Under the pieces are notes generated by a model, which made no database searches, had not been told where the DNA came from, and saw only the letters and a program-made list of their open reading frames with translations. Shown piece after piece: positions 6,927-27,360 of a stretch of 38,970 nucleotides of DNA. Positions within the stretch are counted from its first letter, which is position 1. Each line of letters opens with the position of its first letter. The translations under genes and the position numbers were made by a program. This stretch comes from Clostridia bacterium (lineage in GTDB: Bacteria > Bacillota > Clostridia > Oscillospirales > CAG-272): positions 1 through 38,970 of the forward strand of contig JAFTKJ010000092.1 of NCBI GenBank assembly GCA_017453305.1, read 5' to 3'.

Positions 6927-8219
6927 TTATACCCGATAAAGCTCTCCGATCAGATCCATTGCGGTCTTGATGCATTCCTCCTCCAGACAAGTCGGATACG
7001 GTGAAGAGCTTGCTTCATAGCCACCCTCAGCAAAAATCTCAGGCGTGGGCAGATATCCCTCGCCTCCGTTACACAGGCAGGAGGTCAGAACTGTAAGCTC
7101 GGGGCAAGCCTCCTCCACGGCAGTACCGTAGTGAGTAAAGGGCTCGCCTCCAAATCCAACGATACAAATCTGACCAAGCCTCATCACAGTGACGGGCAAT
7201 TGCTGGAATGCGGGCGCGGTACGCAGTCCAACGACTCGGTTTGCGTCGCCAAGCTGTGCTCCGGAGGGACGTGGGATACTGCCCTCAAAAGTTGCCTTCA
7301 AAAGCGCCTTGCATTCCTCATAGCGCTCCATACCGTCGGTACGCGTGGGCAAAACCACGTCGCGCACTCCGTATCCGAGACTCACGTCCGTCTGCGGAGC
7401 GGTACGTTCCCAGATTTTCACCACCACGTCAGCAATAATGCGCCCCATGCGCGCGCTGTGCTCGTATCCGTGGCGTCTGCCGCCGATATAGTCGTTATGA
7501 TTACTGTCTCCTTGCACACCGTTGAGAAGAATACAGAATACGTTCTCAATATCCTTCTCCACATACCTTCGAACAAAGCCGGGCCAATCGGCAGAAATAT
7601 ATTCTCCGCCGATCACATCGGGATGCGTACAGAAATTGACAAACGCGATGTCCTTCTTGCCCTCTCTGAAAAAGCGCAAAAGGCGCACACGGTTATCGGC
7701 ATCTCCCAGACGGCGAACGATCTCACTCTGTCTGCCAAAGGGATGACCGATAATCGTACCGTCAGTCATCAGATATCTGCGGATAAAAGCGATCGGCTCG
7801 GCGGTTTCCTCCATCGCAAAGCCGAGCGTTGCATCGCTCATGTCATCAAGCGCCATTTGCGCGACGTCGCAGTATCTACTGTACAGCATCTCCATATATG
7901 CGAAACCATGTGTCTCCTGCTCTTTCCTGTTACCCACGTAGATGGAGGTGTGTTGGTGAAGTGCGGAAAGCATGATGTGAGCAGTATCAATTTTGATCCG
8001 TTCTGCGATTTTATTGCGAATTTTTTCGCAATATTTACGGTCCACCCCAAGAAAATCCGAGGTGACAATCAAGTTTGTCGTTTTTCCGTCGAACAATGCA
8101 ATCGCATTCAACTGAAGCGGATCGAGCACGCCCTTTGCATAGCGATCTGCAAAATATCCCGGAATATAGGAACCGAGCGGTGGAGTGACGTCCACTCTTG
8201 CAAAGCCTGCTTTTAACAT
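6927..8219 (-). CDS. Neutral/alkaline ceramidase N-terminal domain-like hydrolase
   Basis: A 430-residue protein resembling the catalytic domain of neutral ceramidases, zinc amidases that cleave N-acyl bonds. It opens with GFARVDVTPPLGSYIPGYF, the family start motif. LSALHQHTS (84-92) occupies the place of the THTHS zinc-ligand segment, and CTHPDVIGGEYISADWPGF supplies the later His and the Asp-Trp-Pro-Gly stretch. True ceramidases are secreted and about 650 residues long with a C-terminal domain; this one has no signal peptide and only the first domain, so ceramide itself is an unlikely substrate. Similar stand-alone proteins occur in carbohydrate clusters. An AAAAGGAA ribosome binding site precedes the ATG. 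In this operon I infer an amidase or N-deacylase acting on an amino-sugar conjugate. Confidence 0.8.
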   Translation of the reverse strand: MLKAGFARVDVTPPLGSYIPGYFADRYAKGVLDPLQLNAIALFDGKTTNLIVTSDFLGVDRKYCEKIRNKIAERIKIDTAHIMLSALHQHTSIYVGNRKEQETHGFAYMEMLYSRYCDVAQMALDDMSDATLGFAMEETAEPIAFIRRYLMTDGTIIGHPFGRQSEIVRRLGDADNRVRLLRFFREGKKDIAFVNFCTHPDVIGGEYISADWPGFVRRYVEKDIENVFCILLNGVQGDSNHNDYIGGRRHGYEHSARMGRIIADVVVKIWERTAPQTDVSLGYGVRDVVLPTRTDGMERYEECKALLKATFEGSIPRPSGAQLGDANRVVGLRTAPAFQQLPVTVMRLGQICIVGFGGEPFTHYGTAVEEACPELTVLTSCLCNGGEGYLPTPEIFAEGGYEASSSPYPTCLEEECIKTAMDLIGELYRV

Positions 8220-21912: not shown

Positions 21913-21952
21913 AAAGGACCGCCGAGAGCGACCAAACGGTTACTCTCGGCGG
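21913..21952 (-). terminator. Terminator of the first sigma factor gene (shared hairpin type)
   Basis: CCGCCGAGAG pairs with CTCTCGGCGG, with an inner ACC/GGT pair, and is followed on the minus strand by a run of six T. It closely resembles the hairpins after the other two sigma genes. Confidence 0.9.
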
Positions 21953-21969
21953 TGATTCTATTTTGTTGA

Positions 21970-23619
21970 TTACGGCATATTAAAGTATGCGCCAACAGAA
22001 GGTGATGTGTTTTCATCATATTTTAGCCATCCGCTTGCGAGTGCATACTTAACAACATATCCCAGCGTATGACTTGTTGTACATATCGATTCAAGCAATG
22101 CATTAACTGTCCTTTCGTCGTCTCGGAGACACTTTGGAAGATCCGAAACGAGAATTTCACGAACCGAGTTATTGATTTTTTCAATTGTTTGCAAAATGCT
22201 TTCGTTTAACTTGCCTCTAACATTGGAGTGCTGGATAAAATCCGAACTGAATTTTTCCTTTTTACAAAACTTTAAAAACGCTTGACATGTACTTTGCTTT
22301 ATAACTGTCACGTTCGGAATATACTTGTCTTCTTTTTTTGCGACATATCCATAATTGATAAGTTTTTCTCTAACAGCCTCGTTCTTGGCTTTCTTGTTTT
22401 CCACAATAAGCCGCAGTTCGTGAGCCTCATCCTTGGTAAGGTTTGCTGGGGTTCTGTTTTGAATTCCGCAATACCCAAAACGGTAATGCACAAAGCCTTC
22501 ATACTGACAGTGGAAGCCTACCGTATCGGGGCAAAAATCGCACTTTTCAAAACCTACAACATCCCAAATGCCTCTGTTTTGTCTTGGCGTGTTGCCAAGT
22601 TTGTCTTTTGGAGAGTTACCACATAGTGAATACAAGCTTTTATAAAAATCCATCAGCAACATCCATTTGGCTTCCTCATAGCTCTGATACTCACCGTAAT
22701 AACAAAGACCTGCTTCTTGGTATTGCGCCATCAACCTATCGATATCTTCCGTTATAAGTGCAATTAACTGAGGTAATATGCCTTCATAGTAAAAATGGAT
22801 TTTTTGCTGTGCCTCGCGACTGATGATCGGGAAGTTCGTTTCATATCTGTCACCGCTTTTGACAAGCAACGTTTGTGCTGTCAAATGCTTTACCGCATCT
22901 TCCATGTATGGCAAAGCAACTCCCACCTCTATAGCAAGTTCCTCCACCGTCATAGGATTGTCGTAACACGCAAGGAAAATATTCTGGTTCAGCTTGGGAT
23001 CCATCAAAGTCCACGGCTGACCGAGCTCACCGGGAGCAGTGCAAATATTTGAATATACGATTTCTTCGGGATTATAACTGCGTTTTCCAAATTCTCTTGC
23101 CATATTCATACCTTCTTTCAATATGATTCTTGCACGGTGAAGTCTTTGCTGAACCGCGCTTATGGAAAGTGACAGCGATGATGCAATGTCACGAACGCTC
23201 TTGTTCTCGATGTAATAGGCAACGACAATATTGCGATAATCGCTTTTGATGAACGCCAGCTCACGCCGAAGCAGAGCCATTTGCTCTGTATATATCATTT
23301 CATCAAGAATATTTTCGCTTTCATCCTCGATTTCATAATCGCCGATATCGGAACCGGTTACCGATTCGTTTCGATTATGCTTTTCTTTTGCCCATACCGA
23401 ATAACGGTTACGCGCGATCTGCCATACCCATGCCGAAAAGCTTGTTGGTATCGTGCCTTTGTTCAAAGCCGTGATGATCTGAAGTGCTATATCTTGCGTC
23501 AGATCTTCAGCTTCGGTATGGCTTCCTGTCTTTTTCAAACAGAAGTAAAACAGCTTCTCCATATAGTTTTCGGCAAACTCGTTTATGAGCTGATAGCGCA
23601 TTTTGTTCGTTTCCTGCAT
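21970..23619 (-). CDS. ECF-type sigma factor with long C-terminal sensor-like extension (copy 1)
   Basis: 549 residues. Sigma region 2 spans about 8-80 (EAEDLTQDIALQ, FSAWVWQIARNRYSVW) and region 4 about 112-166 with helix-turn-helix SLSLSISAVQQRLHRAR. A normal ECF sigma ends here; this one continues for about 380 residues. The extension has a winged-helix-like segment (219-268, TVEELAIEVGVALPYMEDAV), a helical part with YQSYEEAKWMLLM, a GIWDVVGFE strand, CDFC (Cys360, Cys363) followed by YCGIQNRTP (Cys384), and a second wHTH-like segment (LINYGYVAKKEDKYIP). The ATG at 23619 is chosen for its GGAGG site 7 nt upstream. It has its own operator-containing promoter and hairpin terminator. I do not recognise a described ECF group. 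A ligand- or metal-responsive sigma factor without an anti-sigma is inferred. Confidence 0.85.
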   Translation of the reverse strand: MQETNKMRYQLINEFAENYMEKLFYFCLKKTGSHTEAEDLTQDIALQIITALNKGTIPTSFSAWVWQIARNRYSVWAKEKHNRNESVTGSDIGDYEIEDESENILDEMIYTEQMALLRRELAFIKSDYRNIVVAYYIENKSVRDIASSLSLSISAVQQRLHRARIILKEGMNMAREFGKRSYNPEEIVYSNICTAPGELGQPWTLMDPKLNQNIFLACYDNPMTVEELAIEVGVALPYMEDAVKHLTAQTLLVKSGDRYETNFPIISREAQQKIHFYYEGILPQLIALITEDIDRLMAQYQEAGLCYYGEYQSYEEAKWMLLMDFYKSLYSLCGNSPKDKLGNTPRQNRGIWDVVGFEKCDFCPDTVGFHCQYEGFVHYRFGYCGIQNRTPANLTKDEAHELRLIVENKKAKNEAVREKLINYGYVAKKEDKYIPNVTVIKQSTCQAFLKFCKKEKFSSDFIQHSNVRGKLNESILQTIEKINNSVREILVSDLPKCLRDDERTVNALLESICTTSHTLGYVVKYALASGWLKYDENTSPSVGAYFNMP

Positions 23620-23684
23620 TTTCTCGCCTCCTTTCACCCATATAGTGTGGCATTTCTCGAATTGCTGACAAGATTATTGAAAAT

Positions 23685-23713
23685 ATTATAACATAAATTT
23701 ATGAATTAGTCTA
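23685..23713 (-). promoter_or_regulatory. Promoter of sigma copy 1 with palindromic spacer
   Basis: On the minus strand TAGACT (23708-23713), 17-nt spacer and TATAAT (23685-23690). The spacer contains the 12-bp palindrome CATAAATTTATG (23692-23703). The same arrangement occurs before sigma copy 2 with a paired change in the palindrome, so this is a likely operator. Confidence 0.75.
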
Positions 23714-23722
23714 TACCAAAAG

Positions 23723-23758
23723 CCGCCGAGAGCGATCAAATACGGTCGCTCTCGGCGG
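23723..23758 (-). terminator. Terminator of the second sigma factor gene (shared hairpin type)
   Basis: CCGCCGAGAGCGA (23723-23735) pairs with TCGCTCTCGGCGG (23746-23758) without mismatch, followed on the minus strand by CTTTTGG. It lies between the stop of copy 2 and the promoter of copy 1. Confidence 0.9.
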
Positions 23759-23764
23759 TGATTC

Positions 23765-25429
23765 TTATGAATTTGGAAGTATAATCGTTGTCAGCGCTTT
23801 TTTCTGCTCCTCGGTAGGCGGCTTTAACTTGCCATTGTTCAAAAGAGCAACGATACAATGGCACAAGAACCATCCGTCAGAGTGGAAAACAAATTGCAGC
23901 TCATATTCTTTTAGTTTTCGCAAATGTGCAGGAACGGAATTCAATACAGCATCCACATAGGGTGCTTTGATGGTGTCAAATTCATCCTTGTATTTAGCCT
24001 TGATCTTTTCTCCGACGGCGAGGAGCTTATTTTGAATACCTTTGTTCCTCAAAACAACAACCTGCCACGCCGTTTTGAAGTTTCCGTCATAATCTCCCCA
24101 GAACTTGATATATCCGCGCTCGGAAAGCCATGCATAATCTTCTTTGGAAAGAAGATTTTCTTCTTCGTGCTCATACAACGAGAGAACACGTTCTGCAACT
24201 TCATGCTCATATTGATTTACGCCGATGCGGTGTCCCGACCACTCGGTATCAACCTTCCAAAGCATATGCTCCACATTCGTGTCATAATATGGCCCGCACC
24301 AATTTCTCATGTAAACGTAATCTTCCGGCAGCTTCATTTCTTCGGGCACAACCGCAGCATGTGCAATATTGTGCGCTCCATCGGGGCGAATGGTAGCAAC
24401 CTCTTCAAAGGTGATTGTACTATCCATCAATTTTTCGCCCGACATTGCGGCAATATACGGGATAAGCGACCACAAAAGGAAGTTTTTATCTCTGAGCGGC
24501 TTCTCTTGCGTAGAATTGGGTAGCATTTGGTTGCAGAAAATATTCTCATCATCCAAAATGCCGCTGTTTGTCAGCTCATCGTAAAGCGCATTTGCAAATA
24601 ACCCTGCCGCCTTTTTGTACATTGCATCCTGCATGGTCAAAAGCTCTGCCGTCGGCTCACTGATGATAAAATTAACGATATACCTGTCCCCCGTTTGCTT
24701 TAGAAAGCCGTATTCCTCCAAAAACTCTGCTTCGGTTTCTACGTATACGGGTGAAACGCCAAGGGCATCGGCAATTTCATTGACCGTTTTTGCTTCGTTA
24801 CGTACGCAATAGCAAATGTTTTGGGAAAGCGCGGAACGGAAAAATTCATCACAAGATTTCGTCCCGATAGAACCGTTAATCCCCACCGAGGTGAATTTAA
24901 TCGGGTTAAATTTCAATTCACTTGTTTTTCTCATCGTATCCATACCTCGTTTCAATTCTTTTTTGGCTTCAAACAAGTGCCATTTAACAGTACCGAGAGG
25001 AATATCCAGCTCTTTTGCAATATCGGCTTGCTTACGTTTTTCAAAATAGTACGCAATTACGATCTTTCGCTGGAGCTTAGAAAGATATGCGATTTCGCTC
25101 TGCAATCTACGGATAGTACCGGCATTGTCGTCATCTGCCAACATTGAGTCGGGATCGGCAATCACCTCTGCTACTTCATCAATGGACACGCCTATCACGC
25201 TTTTTGCGGCATCTCTATAGTAATTGCTGAGCGCGTTATGCGCAATCGTCCAAATAAACTTTCTGACGTCACCGATATCGTCCTTGATCAACAGTGCGCG
25301 AAACGCCCTGAGCACGATATCCTGCGAAAGATCCTCCGCATCGTGTGCATTTTTACACCGCTTCAGCGCAAAGCCGAATATGGGCTGTAAATATTCATTT
25401 ATGATTTTTTCGGCATCTTGTCTGTTCAC
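23765..25429 (-). CDS. ECF-type sigma factor with long C-terminal sensor-like extension (copy 2, divergent)
   Basis: 554 residues, GTG start with GAGGT 8 nt upstream. Sigma region 2 spans about 1-75 (AHDAEDLSQDIVLRAF, FIWTIAHNALSNYY) and region 4 about 105-160 with IAKELDIPLGTVKWHLFEAK. The extension starts after a KFNP motif equivalent to SYNP in copies 1 and 3. It has a winged-helix-like segment (205-257, TVNEIADALGVSPVYVETEA) and a helical middle part. Instead of the Cys-x2-Cys motif it has only NWCGPYYDTN, and a second wHTH-like segment (LSERGYIKFWGDYDG) follows. It is clearly the most distant of the three copies. Promoter, operator and terminator are its own. Visibly AT-richer than rarA and uppP on either side. 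Confidence 0.85.
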   Translation of the reverse strand: MNRQDAEKIINEYLQPIFGFALKRCKNAHDAEDLSQDIVLRAFRALLIKDDIGDVRKFIWTIAHNALSNYYRDAAKSVIGVSIDEVAEVIADPDSMLADDDNAGTIRRLQSEIAYLSKLQRKIVIAYYFEKRKQADIAKELDIPLGTVKWHLFEAKKELKRGMDTMRKTSELKFNPIKFTSVGINGSIGTKSCDEFFRSALSQNICYCVRNEAKTVNEIADALGVSPVYVETEAEFLEEYGFLKQTGDRYIVNFIISEPTAELLTMQDAMYKKAAGLFANALYDELTNSGILDDENIFCNQMLPNSTQEKPLRDKNFLLWSLIPYIAAMSGEKLMDSTITFEEVATIRPDGAHNIAHAAVVPEEMKLPEDYVYMRNWCGPYYDTNVEHMLWKVDTEWSGHRIGVNQYEHEVAERVLSLYEHEEENLLSKEDYAWLSERGYIKFWGDYDGNFKTAWQVVVLRNKGIQNKLLAVGEKIKAKYKDEFDTIKAPYVDAVLNSVPAHLRKLKEYELQFVFHSDGWFLCHCIVALLNNGKLKPPTEEQKKALTTIILPNS

Positions 25430-25500
25430 TTGTTTGTACCTCGTTGAAAGCTTTCACCCATATAGACACGGATTTTAAAAAAGGTTGGAACTTTTTTATC

Positions 25501-25529
25501 ATTATATCACAAATTTGTGAATTAGTCTA
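25501..25529 (-). promoter_or_regulatory. Promoter of sigma copy 2 with palindromic spacer
   Basis: TAGACT (25524-25529), 17-nt spacer and TATAAT (25501-25506) on the minus strand. The spacer holds the perfect 14-bp palindrome TCACAAATTTGTGA (25507-25520). Compared with copy 1, the left-arm T has become C and the right-arm A has become G, keeping the dyad intact. Confidence 0.8.
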
Positions 25530-25538
25530 TACCAAAAG

Positions 25539-25574
25539 CCACCGAGAGCGACCAAATACGGTCGCTCTCGGCGG
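25539..25574 (-). terminator. Terminator of the third sigma factor gene (shared hairpin type)
   Basis: CCACCGAGAGCGACC (25539-25553) pairs with GGTCGCTCTCGGCGG (25560-25574) with one wobble on the minus strand, followed by CTTTTGG. It starts seven bases beyond the stop of copy 3 and abuts the promoter of copy 2. Confidence 0.9.
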
Positions 25575-25580
25575 TGAAAT

Positions 25581-27245
25581 TTATATTACCAAATAAGCCC
25601 CCAACATCTGTTTGTTGTTATCCTTGTCAAAGGTTAAATAGCCCTGTCTGATAGCTTCTTCCAAGACCGCGCCGCGTATTGAAAAAATGTTAACGCAAGC
25701 GTGAGCAATTTGAAATTCATCCTCTTTCAAGAATTCGGGGATTTCTTTATAAATCTGTTCTCGGCAGAACAAATAGTGACGAGTCGCTATTTCCGTTGCT
25801 TTATGGCGAAGCACCTCAAATTGTTCTCGTATCTCTTTTGGCATTTTGTTTGATTTGTTTTTGCGCATAACCATAATGGCGGGAATATAACCATCATCAG
25901 TCTTTTTGATATATCCATAAGATTCTAATCTGTTTAGAATAGACGTATCAACATCTGCGCTCTTACCCTCGGCAACCGCAACCATTGCTTGCCCGTCCGC
26001 ATAGGTAAGAACCGGTGGTGTGCGATTTTCAATTCCGCAATACTTGAAGCGGAATTGGCGGAACATAATTTCGGGCAAATCCTTTTCGTTGGGGCATGAA
26101 ACACATCCGCTAAGACCCACATGTTTGGGCTCATCGCCGTGATGGATTTCCATACCAAGCAAATCCCATTCGCCACCATTAGGACGGAGAGTATGTCCCC
26201 ATGGACCAATATTAGGAACATCTTTGGCGTTTTTATTAAAAGGCTTAAGGGTATCAAAAGATACGTTATCAGCTTCGATCATAAGAAGCGCCCACTTCAT
26301 ATCCTCATAGCTTTGATAACCTTCATGCCACTCGGGTGCATTTTTGTTTGACCACTGAATATTATACTCCATCGTGTCAATGATCGCCTTTGTAAGCTCT
26401 GGAGCAATCCCACGCACATGTGCACAAATCTTTTCTTGTGCTTCTGCACTCACAATAAATATGTTGGTTTCGTATTTGTTGCCATTTTTCTTCATCAATG
26501 TAGCATTTACGAGTGTAGATAGTTCTTCCTCCATATACGGAAGTGCTACTCCCACCTCCATTGCCAATTCTTCTGCCGTTGCCGGTGTTCTATATGCTGC
26601 AAGCATAATATTTTTACTGAGAGAACGCGAAACATAAATTCCGGGTTCGCCATTTGCGCCAGGTAACCCATTAACCCAAAATGCAATATTTTCGGGATTA
26701 TAGCTTAATTTTCCAAATTCTCTTGCCATATCCATACCTTCTTTCAAAATTTGTCTTGCACGGAACAGTCGAGACTTTACCGTGCTTGTGGGAAGCGAGA
26801 GTGATTCTGCAATTTCACGAATGGTTTTGTTTTCGATGTAATAGGCAACGACGATGTTGCGGTAATCGCTTTTGATGAACGCCAGCTCACGCCGAAGCAG
26901 AGCCATTTGCTCTGCACGTATCATTTCATCAAGGATATTTTCGCTTTCGTCTTCTATTTCATAATCGCCGATATCGGAACAGGTTACCGACTCGTTTCGA
27001 TGATGCTTTTCTTTTGCCCATACGGAATAACGGTTGCGCGCAATCTGCCATACCCACGCCGAAAAGCTTGTAGGAATTATACCTTTATTCAAAGCGGTTA
27101 TAATTTGAAGCGCAATGTCCTGTGTCAGATCTTCCGCTTCAATGTGGCTGCCGGTCTTTTTCAAGCAGAAGTAAAACAGCTTTTCCATATAGTTTTCGGT
27201 AAATTCATTGATCAGTCGATCACGCATTTGGTTCATTTCTTGCAT
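25581..27245 (-). CDS. ECF-type sigma factor with long C-terminal sensor-like extension (copy 3)
   Basis: 554 residues from the ATG at 27245, which has the same GGAGG-CGAGAAA leader as copy 1; upstream in-frame codons to 27329 lack a ribosome binding site. Sigma region 2 and the linker are almost identical to copy 1 (about 7 changes in 128 residues). The region 4 helix-turn-helix (SLSLPTSTVKSRLFRAR) and everything after it differ much more. The extension has a winged-helix-like segment (TAEELAMEVGVALPYMEEEL), YQSYEDMKWALLM, a GEWDLLGME strand, CVSC (Cys381, Cys384) with YCGIENRTP (Cys403), and a second wHTH-like segment (LESYGYIKKTDDGYIP). The shared TAGACT/palindrome promoter is absent; only weak -10-like sequences lie in 27330-27360. 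Confidence 0.85.
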   Translation of the reverse strand: MQEMNQMRDRLINEFTENYMEKLFYFCLKKTGSHIEAEDLTQDIALQIITALNKGIIPTSFSAWVWQIARNRYSVWAKEKHHRNESVTCSDIGDYEIEDESENILDEMIRAEQMALLRRELAFIKSDYRNIVVAYYIENKTIREIAESLSLPTSTVKSRLFRARQILKEGMDMAREFGKLSYNPENIAFWVNGLPGANGEPGIYVSRSLSKNIMLAAYRTPATAEELAMEVGVALPYMEEELSTLVNATLMKKNGNKYETNIFIVSAEAQEKICAHVRGIAPELTKAIIDTMEYNIQWSNKNAPEWHEGYQSYEDMKWALLMIEADNVSFDTLKPFNKNAKDVPNIGPWGHTLRPNGGEWDLLGMEIHHGDEPKHVGLSGCVSCPNEKDLPEIMFRQFRFKYCGIENRTPPVLTYADGQAMVAVAEGKSADVDTSILNRLESYGYIKKTDDGYIPAIMVMRKNKSNKMPKEIREQFEVLRHKATEIATRHYLFCREQIYKEIPEFLKEDEFQIAHACVNIFSIRGAVLEEAIRQGYLTFDKDNNKQMLGAYLVI

Positions 27246-27360
27246 TTTCTCGCCTCCTTTCCGAAAAGCGCTTTGCTTTTCATCCATATAGTGTGGCATT
27301 TTTGAATTTGGTTGCACCGATTTTTTCAATATTTTAAAATTATCACCCCGTATGCAAAAA

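Follow-up and report, generated by a model that had tools for sequence, protein, structure and literature searches.

Three genes for extended sigma factors of the extracytoplasmic function (ECF) type lie side by side on contig JAFTKJ010000092.1 of a gut-dwelling Clostridia bacterium (assembly GCA_017453305.1), whose positions 1 to 38,970 constitute the window analysed here. The home genome is a 2.63 Mb draft that is 80% complete. The genes, referred to as G1, G2 and G3, occupy the following positions of the window:

21970-23619, minus strand: G1, 549 aa, ATG start (MQETNK); sigma2 and sigma4, residues 1-185, at 23065-23619; soluble tail at 21973-23064.
23765-25429, minus strand: G2, 554 aa, GTG start; sigma residues 1-165 at 24935-25429; tail at 23768-24934.
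25581-27245, minus strand: G3, 554 aa, ATG start (MQEMNQ); sigma residues 1-185 at 26691-27245; tail at 25584-26690.

For G1 and G3, longer open reading frames (ORFs) were not used, since they begin 5' of the likely ribosome site. Judged from its DNA, each gene joins sigma2 and sigma4 to a soluble, conserved tail and stands without an anti-sigma gene alongside, and the ECF promoter in front of it fits the sigma4 helix of its own product. We consider it probable that G1-G3 are working ECF sigma factors that act as one-component, self-transcribing switches gated by the tail, with tail and sigma blocks that can be exchanged.

All three proteins match Sigma70_r2 and Sigma70_r4/r4_2 above the Pfam gathering score, with no sigma3 match listed, and TIGR02937 with E values of 1e-22 to 3e-24. 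The two sigma regions fill the first 165-185 residues and are followed by a tail of about 370-390 aa. These matches and the ORF lengths of 549, 554 and 554 aa bear out the first-pass annotation, which had described sigma regions 2 and 4 with a long extension in every gene. The Pfam search of the tails that it had suggested returned nothing above cut-off, and Pfam, NCBIfam and PHROG together gave no tail match that was above cut-off or convincing, either with single sequences or with a 28-member alignment. The best sub-threshold Pfam match of the tails is HTH_Cmi2_C (E 0.0035-0.02, within residues 200-286), and the G2-group tail weakly resembles winged-helix structures (2x4h, E 0.0025; 6sbs, E 0.07); solved structures gave no convincing match to the G1-group tail. 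Of the two winged-helix segments claimed earlier, the first thus gains weak outside support from HTH_Cmi2_C, 2x4h and 6sbs, whereas the second has none. G1-G3 contain no transmembrane segment (maximal 19-residue hydropathy 0.92-1.26). The tails of the G1 and G2 groups are homologous (hhalign 98.0%, E 1.5e-13, 323 columns), and by this comparison the tail is a real domain family, shared by the two groups over most of its length. Its best-conserved part adjoins sigma4 (residues 231-240, containing GVALPYME, 0.93). The distal tail is variable among family members, as would be expected of a sensor, and tail cysteines vary among relatives (judged by eye on part of the alignment).

Each gene is preceded by a candidate ECF promoter:

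23641-23671, minus strand: G1 ECF promoter, -35 TTGTCAGC (23664-23671), N14, -10 CACACTATA (23641-23649).
25460-25488, minus strand: G2 ECF promoter, -35 CCAACC(TTTT), -10 GTGTCTATAT (25460-25469).
27287-27316, minus strand: G3 ECF promoter, -35 TGCAACC (27310-27316), N14, -10 CACACTATA (27287-27295).

The general form of the site is TGYAACC-N14-CACACTATA, just 5' of the ribosome site. The -35 before the own gene is of the AAC type, with the TGTCAGC variant at G1, and the G2-group consensus from 22 aligned promoters reads CCAACCTTTT...GTGTCTRTAT. Across the family the -10 is almost constant; the -35 and the sigma4 recognition helix both vary. Of the 74 proteins of alignment A2, 62 have a usable promoter, defined as a -10 within one mismatch of CACACTAT with enough upstream DNA, and 12 were dropped. 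Distance between -35 elements tracks distance between sigma4 helices (partial r 0.534 with sigma2, tail and pre-helix controlled; 0 of 2000 permutations as high) and is not explained by sigma2 (0.074), the pre-helix (-0.077) or the tail (-0.045; plain r 0.076). The strongest residue-base pairs in low-gap columns join residue 158 to -35 position 3, residue 157 to position 6 and residue 161 to position 4. At residue 158, S goes with C (24/24), Q with T (29/30), K with T (5/5) and T with A (3/3, with an uncertain -35 register in two of the three); at residue 157, K goes with C (42/42), Q with G (12/14) and V or M with T (4/4). Taken together, these pairings come close to a code.

The closest solved sigma domains for G3 are those of Bacillus subtilis SigW (5wuq, E 1.6e-13). 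Among the SigW-DNA crystal contacts given in PMC6713349 are those of T171 to -34, K170 to -31 and H174 to -32/-33; these residues align with family residues 158, 157 and 161, corresponding to -35 positions 3, 6 and 4-5. SigW and the family sigma4 thus share base-contact positions on the evidence of that source, although SigW is controlled by the anti-sigma factor RsiW and carries no such tail. Because the covariation agrees with an independent SigW-DNA structure, it is strong evidence for functional sigma factors whose site is their own -35. Family members therefore look like working, self-transcribing sigma factors. Fifteen further genes were inspected (far relatives, the home-genome members on contigs C14 and C33, and the Ruminococcus albus member), and 14 of them have an AACC...CTATA-like site in this position; in the remaining one, at locus L264, the gene start could not be placed. 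On contig C11 of genome G048, two ECF promoter copies (7829-7866 and 7963-8001) precede one sigma gene.

The first-pass annotation had read the three genes as a tandem family, and this part does not hold: they are not one tandem expansion, since G1 and G3 carry like sigma modules on unlike tails and G2 belongs to a separate group. G1 and G3 are 91.7% identical over residues 1-108 and 34.7% identical in their tails. Over the 74 aligned proteins, identity in sigma2 is unlinked to identity in the first tail domain (r 0.024, a value reached in 339 of 1000 permutations), whereas the tail parts follow one another (r 0.775). In 239 pairs, drawn from 32 of the 74 proteins, sigma2 is at least 85% identical yet the distal tail at most 40%, and mean identity drops from 84% at residues 171-180 to 30% at residues 191-200. 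Codons at shared residues are identical at a rate of 0.68 in the sigma part versus 0.40 in the tail (312 between-genome pairs with alike sigma modules), and at 0.70 versus 0.39 between G1 and G3. The promoter travels with the sigma module, as spacer similarity correlates with sigma2 (r 0.635) rather than with the tail (0.15). From these alignments, tails seem as if swapped between members by recombination at the sigma4-tail joint. Concerted evolution within genomes was also considered and set aside as not specific, sigma codon identity being equally high between genomes (with genomes mapped from the shared bins that were noticed).

Contigs C14 and C33 of the home genome encode two further family members. 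A search with only the G1 tail as query found relatives in 59 of the 98 genomes from the same taxonomic family, with up to 11 matches per genome; among the matches listed, most lie in ORFs of about 500-600 aa. Class-wide, 27 of 291 genomes (home genome counted) gave matches at E 1e-5, under 17 family labels. A scan of named genomes confirmed 230 relatives, of which 80 loci were kept and underlie the locus counts given here; all are titled as metagenome bins, mostly of Clostridia/Oscillospiraceae and mostly from the ruminant gut. Full-length sigma-plus-tail ORFs are present in 72 of the 80, the other eight being cut by contig ends (seven) or short (one). A cultured carrier is R. albus 7, on plasmid pRUMAL02 (RUMAL_RS18960, 512 aa), and its tail aligns with the tail family (hhalign 99.3%, E 4e-20, 260 columns). 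The G2 group is approximately single-copy per genome (38 of 98 genomes at E 1e-10, 29 of them at 1e-35 or below), with 49-87% protein identity to G2 within the aligned G2-group rows; genes of the G1/G3 type are multi-copy and fast-changing. Among plasmid records the G1 tail matches only pRUMAL02, and full-length G2 matches 78 records, among the matches listed mostly through the sigma part. One unannotated 7.7-kb phage record matches the G1 tail at 24.6%. A phage or plasmid origin was rejected; two pattern-limited IMG/VR scans returned no relative.

Some sigma genes are unusual in form. Those at L216 (genome G053), split into two ORFs, and at L343 (G087), without a start, both look broken. Very large ECF-like sigma genes of at least 957-1067 aa occur at L334, L337, L339 and L340 (G043, G081, G065 and G045), with promoters of the CCAACCTTTT type that resemble the G2 promoter, and in the home genome an open frame of 1069 aa on contig C55 gives a weak sigma match.

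Within the window we saw no anti-sigma gene in the flanks of G1-G3, where the neighbours were not scanned with anti-sigma models. The first-pass annotation had regarded an anti-sigma gene consistently linked in relatives as fatal to its view; clustering of neighbours, likewise without anti-sigma models, gave no recurrent candidate in the 80 loci. The commonest non-sigma neighbours are ABC transporters and XRE regulators (14 of 80 loci each, by eye), both generally common, and no other neighbour family recurs in more than four loci. A second sigma-like copy lies within the fetched flanks of nine loci, many flanks being short. Short operons exist: a 178-182-aa membrane protein is encoded with the sigma gene at L044, L045, L048 and L220, and an ABC ATPase and permease lie between sigma gene and hairpin at L037. 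The proposal of a one-component sigma family without a linked anti-sigma gene is thus strengthened by the full-length ORFs, the lack of a recurrent partner by clustering and the promoter/sigma4 covariation.

A terminator-type hairpin follows each of the three genes:

21919-21952, minus strand: hairpin 3' of G1.
23723-23758, minus strand: hairpin 3' of G2.
25539-25574, minus strand: hairpin 3' of G3.

They are alike in type (-28.8 to -33.5 kcal/mol, z -5.5 to -7.6). Since each gene has its own end hairpin and its own promoter-like sites, G1, G2 and G3 are each probably monocistronic, as the first-pass annotation had it. The hairpin as a mark of the sigma unit was ruled out, because 9 of 22 hairpin loci contain no sigma-like ORF in the fetched 1.5 kb; the CCGAGAG...CTCTCGG hairpin is found 3' of XRE-like regulator genes too (L154, L165) and so seems to be a common terminator of the lineage. 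The G3-G2-G1 block is flanked by a WecG/TagA-like transferase gene on one side and an RNase M5 gene on the other. NCBIfam assigns the flanking genes to RarA ATPase-, WecG/TagA transferase-, RNase M5-, UppP- and U32 peptidase-like products, leaving two of seven flanking ORFs without a match. The sigma-gene stretch has a GC content of 41-47%, and its flanks are less AT-rich. No Rfam element reached the gathering score in the region, and a defence system was rejected, PADLOC matches being weak only (E 0.00032 or worse).

In the home genome, good promoter matches are confined to the own promoters of G1 and G3, with six weak others versus eight for a reversed-pattern control, and a second search found no match besides these two sites. 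The pattern with one mismatch gave 23 matches in the 98 genomes, 17 of which sit 527-637 nt 5' of a tail match; the remaining six, against eight in the control, represent no excess, and one of them (G084, contig C28) has a sigma gene of another subfamily about 0.6 kb downstream. Two promoter models were also searched, R1 trained on 42 of the 62 promoters and R2 on 22 of the 25 G2-group rows. Because many training genes come from the searched genomes, self hits are partly by construction, and the informative part is the scarcity and identity of the non-family hits. R1 returned 44 hits at E ≤0.0065, 38 of them 519-669 nt 5' of a tail match and one, in G067, in front of a contig-terminal family gene. 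Five lie elsewhere, four with plausible targets, namely 230-aa two-helix membrane proteins in G048 and G088 that are mutually homologous (25% identity, E 8e-23), a lipoprotein in G080 and, in G091, a putative membrane protein of 188 aa; the fifth (G089) has none. A weaker R1 hit in G068 (E 0.03) has two ABC transporter genes downstream. With R2, 26 of 28 hits at E ≤3e-7 sit 508-550 nt 5' of G2-group tail matches, and the other two precede a G2-group gene at a contig end (L342) and an apparent remnant (L343). The weaker hits of R2 point, among others, to a lipoprotein in each of G043 and G068, to the 230-aa protein of G068 and to several other ECF genes, and some have no clear gene. The 230-aa membrane protein family is present in 47 of 98 genomes, has two N-terminal helices and shows no Pfam match above cut-off; examples are:

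L210, 1780-2469: 230-aa family gene.
L212, 1923-2612: 230-aa family gene.
L327, 515-1207: 230-aa family gene.

An ECF-type site precedes the 230-aa gene in five genomes (G048, G068, G088, G080 and G039). In a motif scan of 30 loci of this family the start was placed in 21, some wrongly (including G048), and the motif was found in four, two of them already known, versus 0.47 expected from shuffles. As the non-self sites are few and mostly concern the envelope, the regulons look tiny, envelope-directed and similar to those of ECF41.

Additional promoter-like sites, assigned to the SigA type by consensus only, lie 5' of two of the genes:

23685-23713, minus strand: SigA-type site 5' of G1, TAGACT-N17-TATAAT, with a near-palindrome in the spacer, one mismatch off.
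25501-25529, minus strand: SigA-type site 5' of G2, TAGACT-N17-TATAAT, with the perfect spacer palindrome TCACAAATTTGTGA.

Similar SigA-type sites precede many relatives. We propose the following hypothetical sequence of events, in which (i) a SigA-type promoter (G1, G2) would supply a little protein that is kept inactive by its tail; (ii) the first, winged-helix-like tail domain would pack on sigma2/sigma4; (iii) a cytosolic signal would bind the variable distal tail and free the sigma domains; (iv) the freed sigma factor would transcribe its own gene, giving positive feedback and an all-or-none response, with a non-self output that would not go beyond a few envelope genes (for lipoproteins, ABC transporters and the two-helix membrane protein of 230 aa). 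With promoter plus sigma module exchangeable against the tail, new sensors could be plugged onto a ready-made, self-amplifying output. The tail probably replaces the usual separate inhibitor. We infer gating of the sigma factor by its own tail, as well as signal and amplification, by analogy with ECF41 and other extended groups.

According to PMC3426412, activity in ECF41 is governed by the extension, and no target is detectable apart from the sigma factor's own transcript or a neighbouring one. The ECF41 members SigJ and Ecf41Bli described there are also extended ECF factors without a linked anti-sigma gene, with a conserved own promoter and almost no other target. However, the ECF41 extension is SnoaL-like, about 100 aa long and accompanied by an adjoining COE gene, whereas the tails studied here span 370-390 aa and occur in many paralogues per genome; a Pfam scan of G1-G3 found no SnoaL-like extension of the approximately 100-150 aa seen in ECF41 and other SnoaL groups. 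ECF42, as outlined in PMC8999054, likewise combines a C-terminal extension with the lack of an anti-sigma factor, but has TPR repeats and a YCII-type neighbour, and G1-G3 give no TPR match. The same source presents ECF238/ECF44 (CorE) as groups whose extension senses in the cytosol; their Cys-rich domain and CXC linker motif are both absent from G1-G3 by cysteine positions (alignment inspected by eye). Unlike ECF48/52/53, whose extension contains a transmembrane segment and a zinc finger, the G1-G3 tails have neither by hydropathy and Pfam. More generally, the three genes lack the linked anti-sigma gene of a canonical ECF/anti-sigma pair and display the sigma2 plus sigma4 architecture and AAC-type -35 of ECF group IV.

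Several observations speak against tail-gated, self-transcribing, exchangeable units. Helix and promoter clearly mismatch in 2 of the 62 pairs (L097, L108), and smaller departures exist too; the nearest neighbour by helix predicts the exact -35 heptamer in only 52% of cases (tail 15%, random 9%). Sigma2 is weakly linked to the distal tail (r 0.264; 0 of 1000 permutations), and the high codon identity of sigma modules could partly be due to selection, which would need to act on silent sites. The non-self targets rest on few sites, and the distal tail could bind DNA or a partner instead of a signal. L097 and L108 both combine a QQRLHRA-type recognition helix with a promoter of another type, perhaps through cross-regulation or recent exchange.

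That the tails might belong to a described ECF group had been named in the first-pass annotation as the outcome that would overturn it. This is not the case for ECF41, ECF42, ECF48/52/53 and ECF238/ECF44, and ECF262 is the one described group we found that might include them. It is quite possible, if somewhat short of an even chance, that G1-G3 are members of ECF262, an extended group on record whose mechanism is undetermined. Table 2 of PMC8999054 places it in the class Others of regulatory extensions with the representative SFB89493.1 from R. albus, and a family member is also found on pRUMAL02 of R. albus 7; a shared host species is not homology, however. None of the titles and abstract openings listed in the literature search deals with this tail; the main classification paper lay outside that search, so that absence from print is not established.

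We regard it as unlikely that, instead of responding to a small molecule, the tail docks a partner protein, as has been proposed for ECF42, or is proteolysed, as is expected for ECF48/52/53. PMC8999054 describes or proposes mechanisms of this kind in other extended groups, but the tails contain no TPR, WD40 or zinc-finger match and no transmembrane segment, and no consistent partner gene accompanies them.

Rather unlikely, too, is a tail that acts as a DNA-binding autorepressor, with the winged helix binding a palindrome after the -10 and a ligand shifting the balance between sigma factor and repressor. Such a palindrome is found at G2:

25445-25456, minus strand: 12-bp palindrome TGAAAGCTTTCA directly 3' of the G2 -10.

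GAAAGCTTTC is retained in 23 of 25 G2-group rows (by eye; two rows represent one gene); of the other two, L284 carries a compensating, paired change and L286 a spacer. Perfect palindromes of 10-14 bp that differ between subfamilies directly follow the -10 in the G2 group (TGAAAGCTTTCA), R. albus (CAGAAGCTTCTG), L233 (ACAACATGTTGT), L234 (AATCATCGATGATT), L263 (ATCACCGGTGAT), L053 (TGAACGTTCA), C33 (ATTGATCAAT) and G3 (AAAGCGCTTT), each with a shuffle p of 0 to 0.035; the set comprises 69 sites extracted by script, with C33, L263 and G3 added by hand. L253 is also among the loci with a palindrome in this place. This conservation and the weakly winged-helix-like first tail domain would fit an autorepressor. 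Yet palindromes of five or more pairs occur at 23 of 72 sites, 15 of them from the G2 group, versus 19 of 68 in an upstream control, so that the plain count shows no excess and the argument rests on conservation and position; most G1-type members have no palindrome. Furthermore, tail-less canonical ECF genes start alike, for example with TGAAGGCCTT, and the site may serve another role. Short ECF genes at L329, L331, L335, L336, L338 and L341, whose next ORF is membrane-protein-like by eye, have a G2-type -10 and the start GTGAAAG/GTGAAGG, which shows that this start is not confined to sigma factors with a tail. A plug-in family in which the promoter-sigma block sits on many diverged tails, and the tail of several subfamilies additionally represses a palindrome at its own transcript start, would unite activator, repressor and sensor in one protein, which we consider improbable.

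Largely selfish cassettes, in which the sigma factor would have no target but its own gene and copies would spread as units of promoter, gene and hairpin, appear very improbable: the good home-genome matches confined to the G1 and G3 promoters, the 39 of 44 R1 hits before family genes (partly by construction), the presence of as many as 11 matches in one genome and units AT-richer than their flanks would suit them, but the two IMG/VR scans yielded no relative, G2 is conserved and about single-copy, and repeated non-self targets exist.

Tail-gated, self-transcribing sigma factors thus remain our preferred reading of G1-G3. Few bacterial switches are as poorly understood as extended ECF sigma factors; by the count in section 3.5 of PMC8999054, 15 extended groups still await study. 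In the present family dozens of sigma4/-35 pairs occur naturally, and as their covariation matches a crystal contact map, a recognition code becomes directly testable; R. albus 7 is a cultured host that carries a member. The family also suggests how gut Clostridia diversify their signalling, namely by placing new sensor tails on a self-amplifying sigma module.

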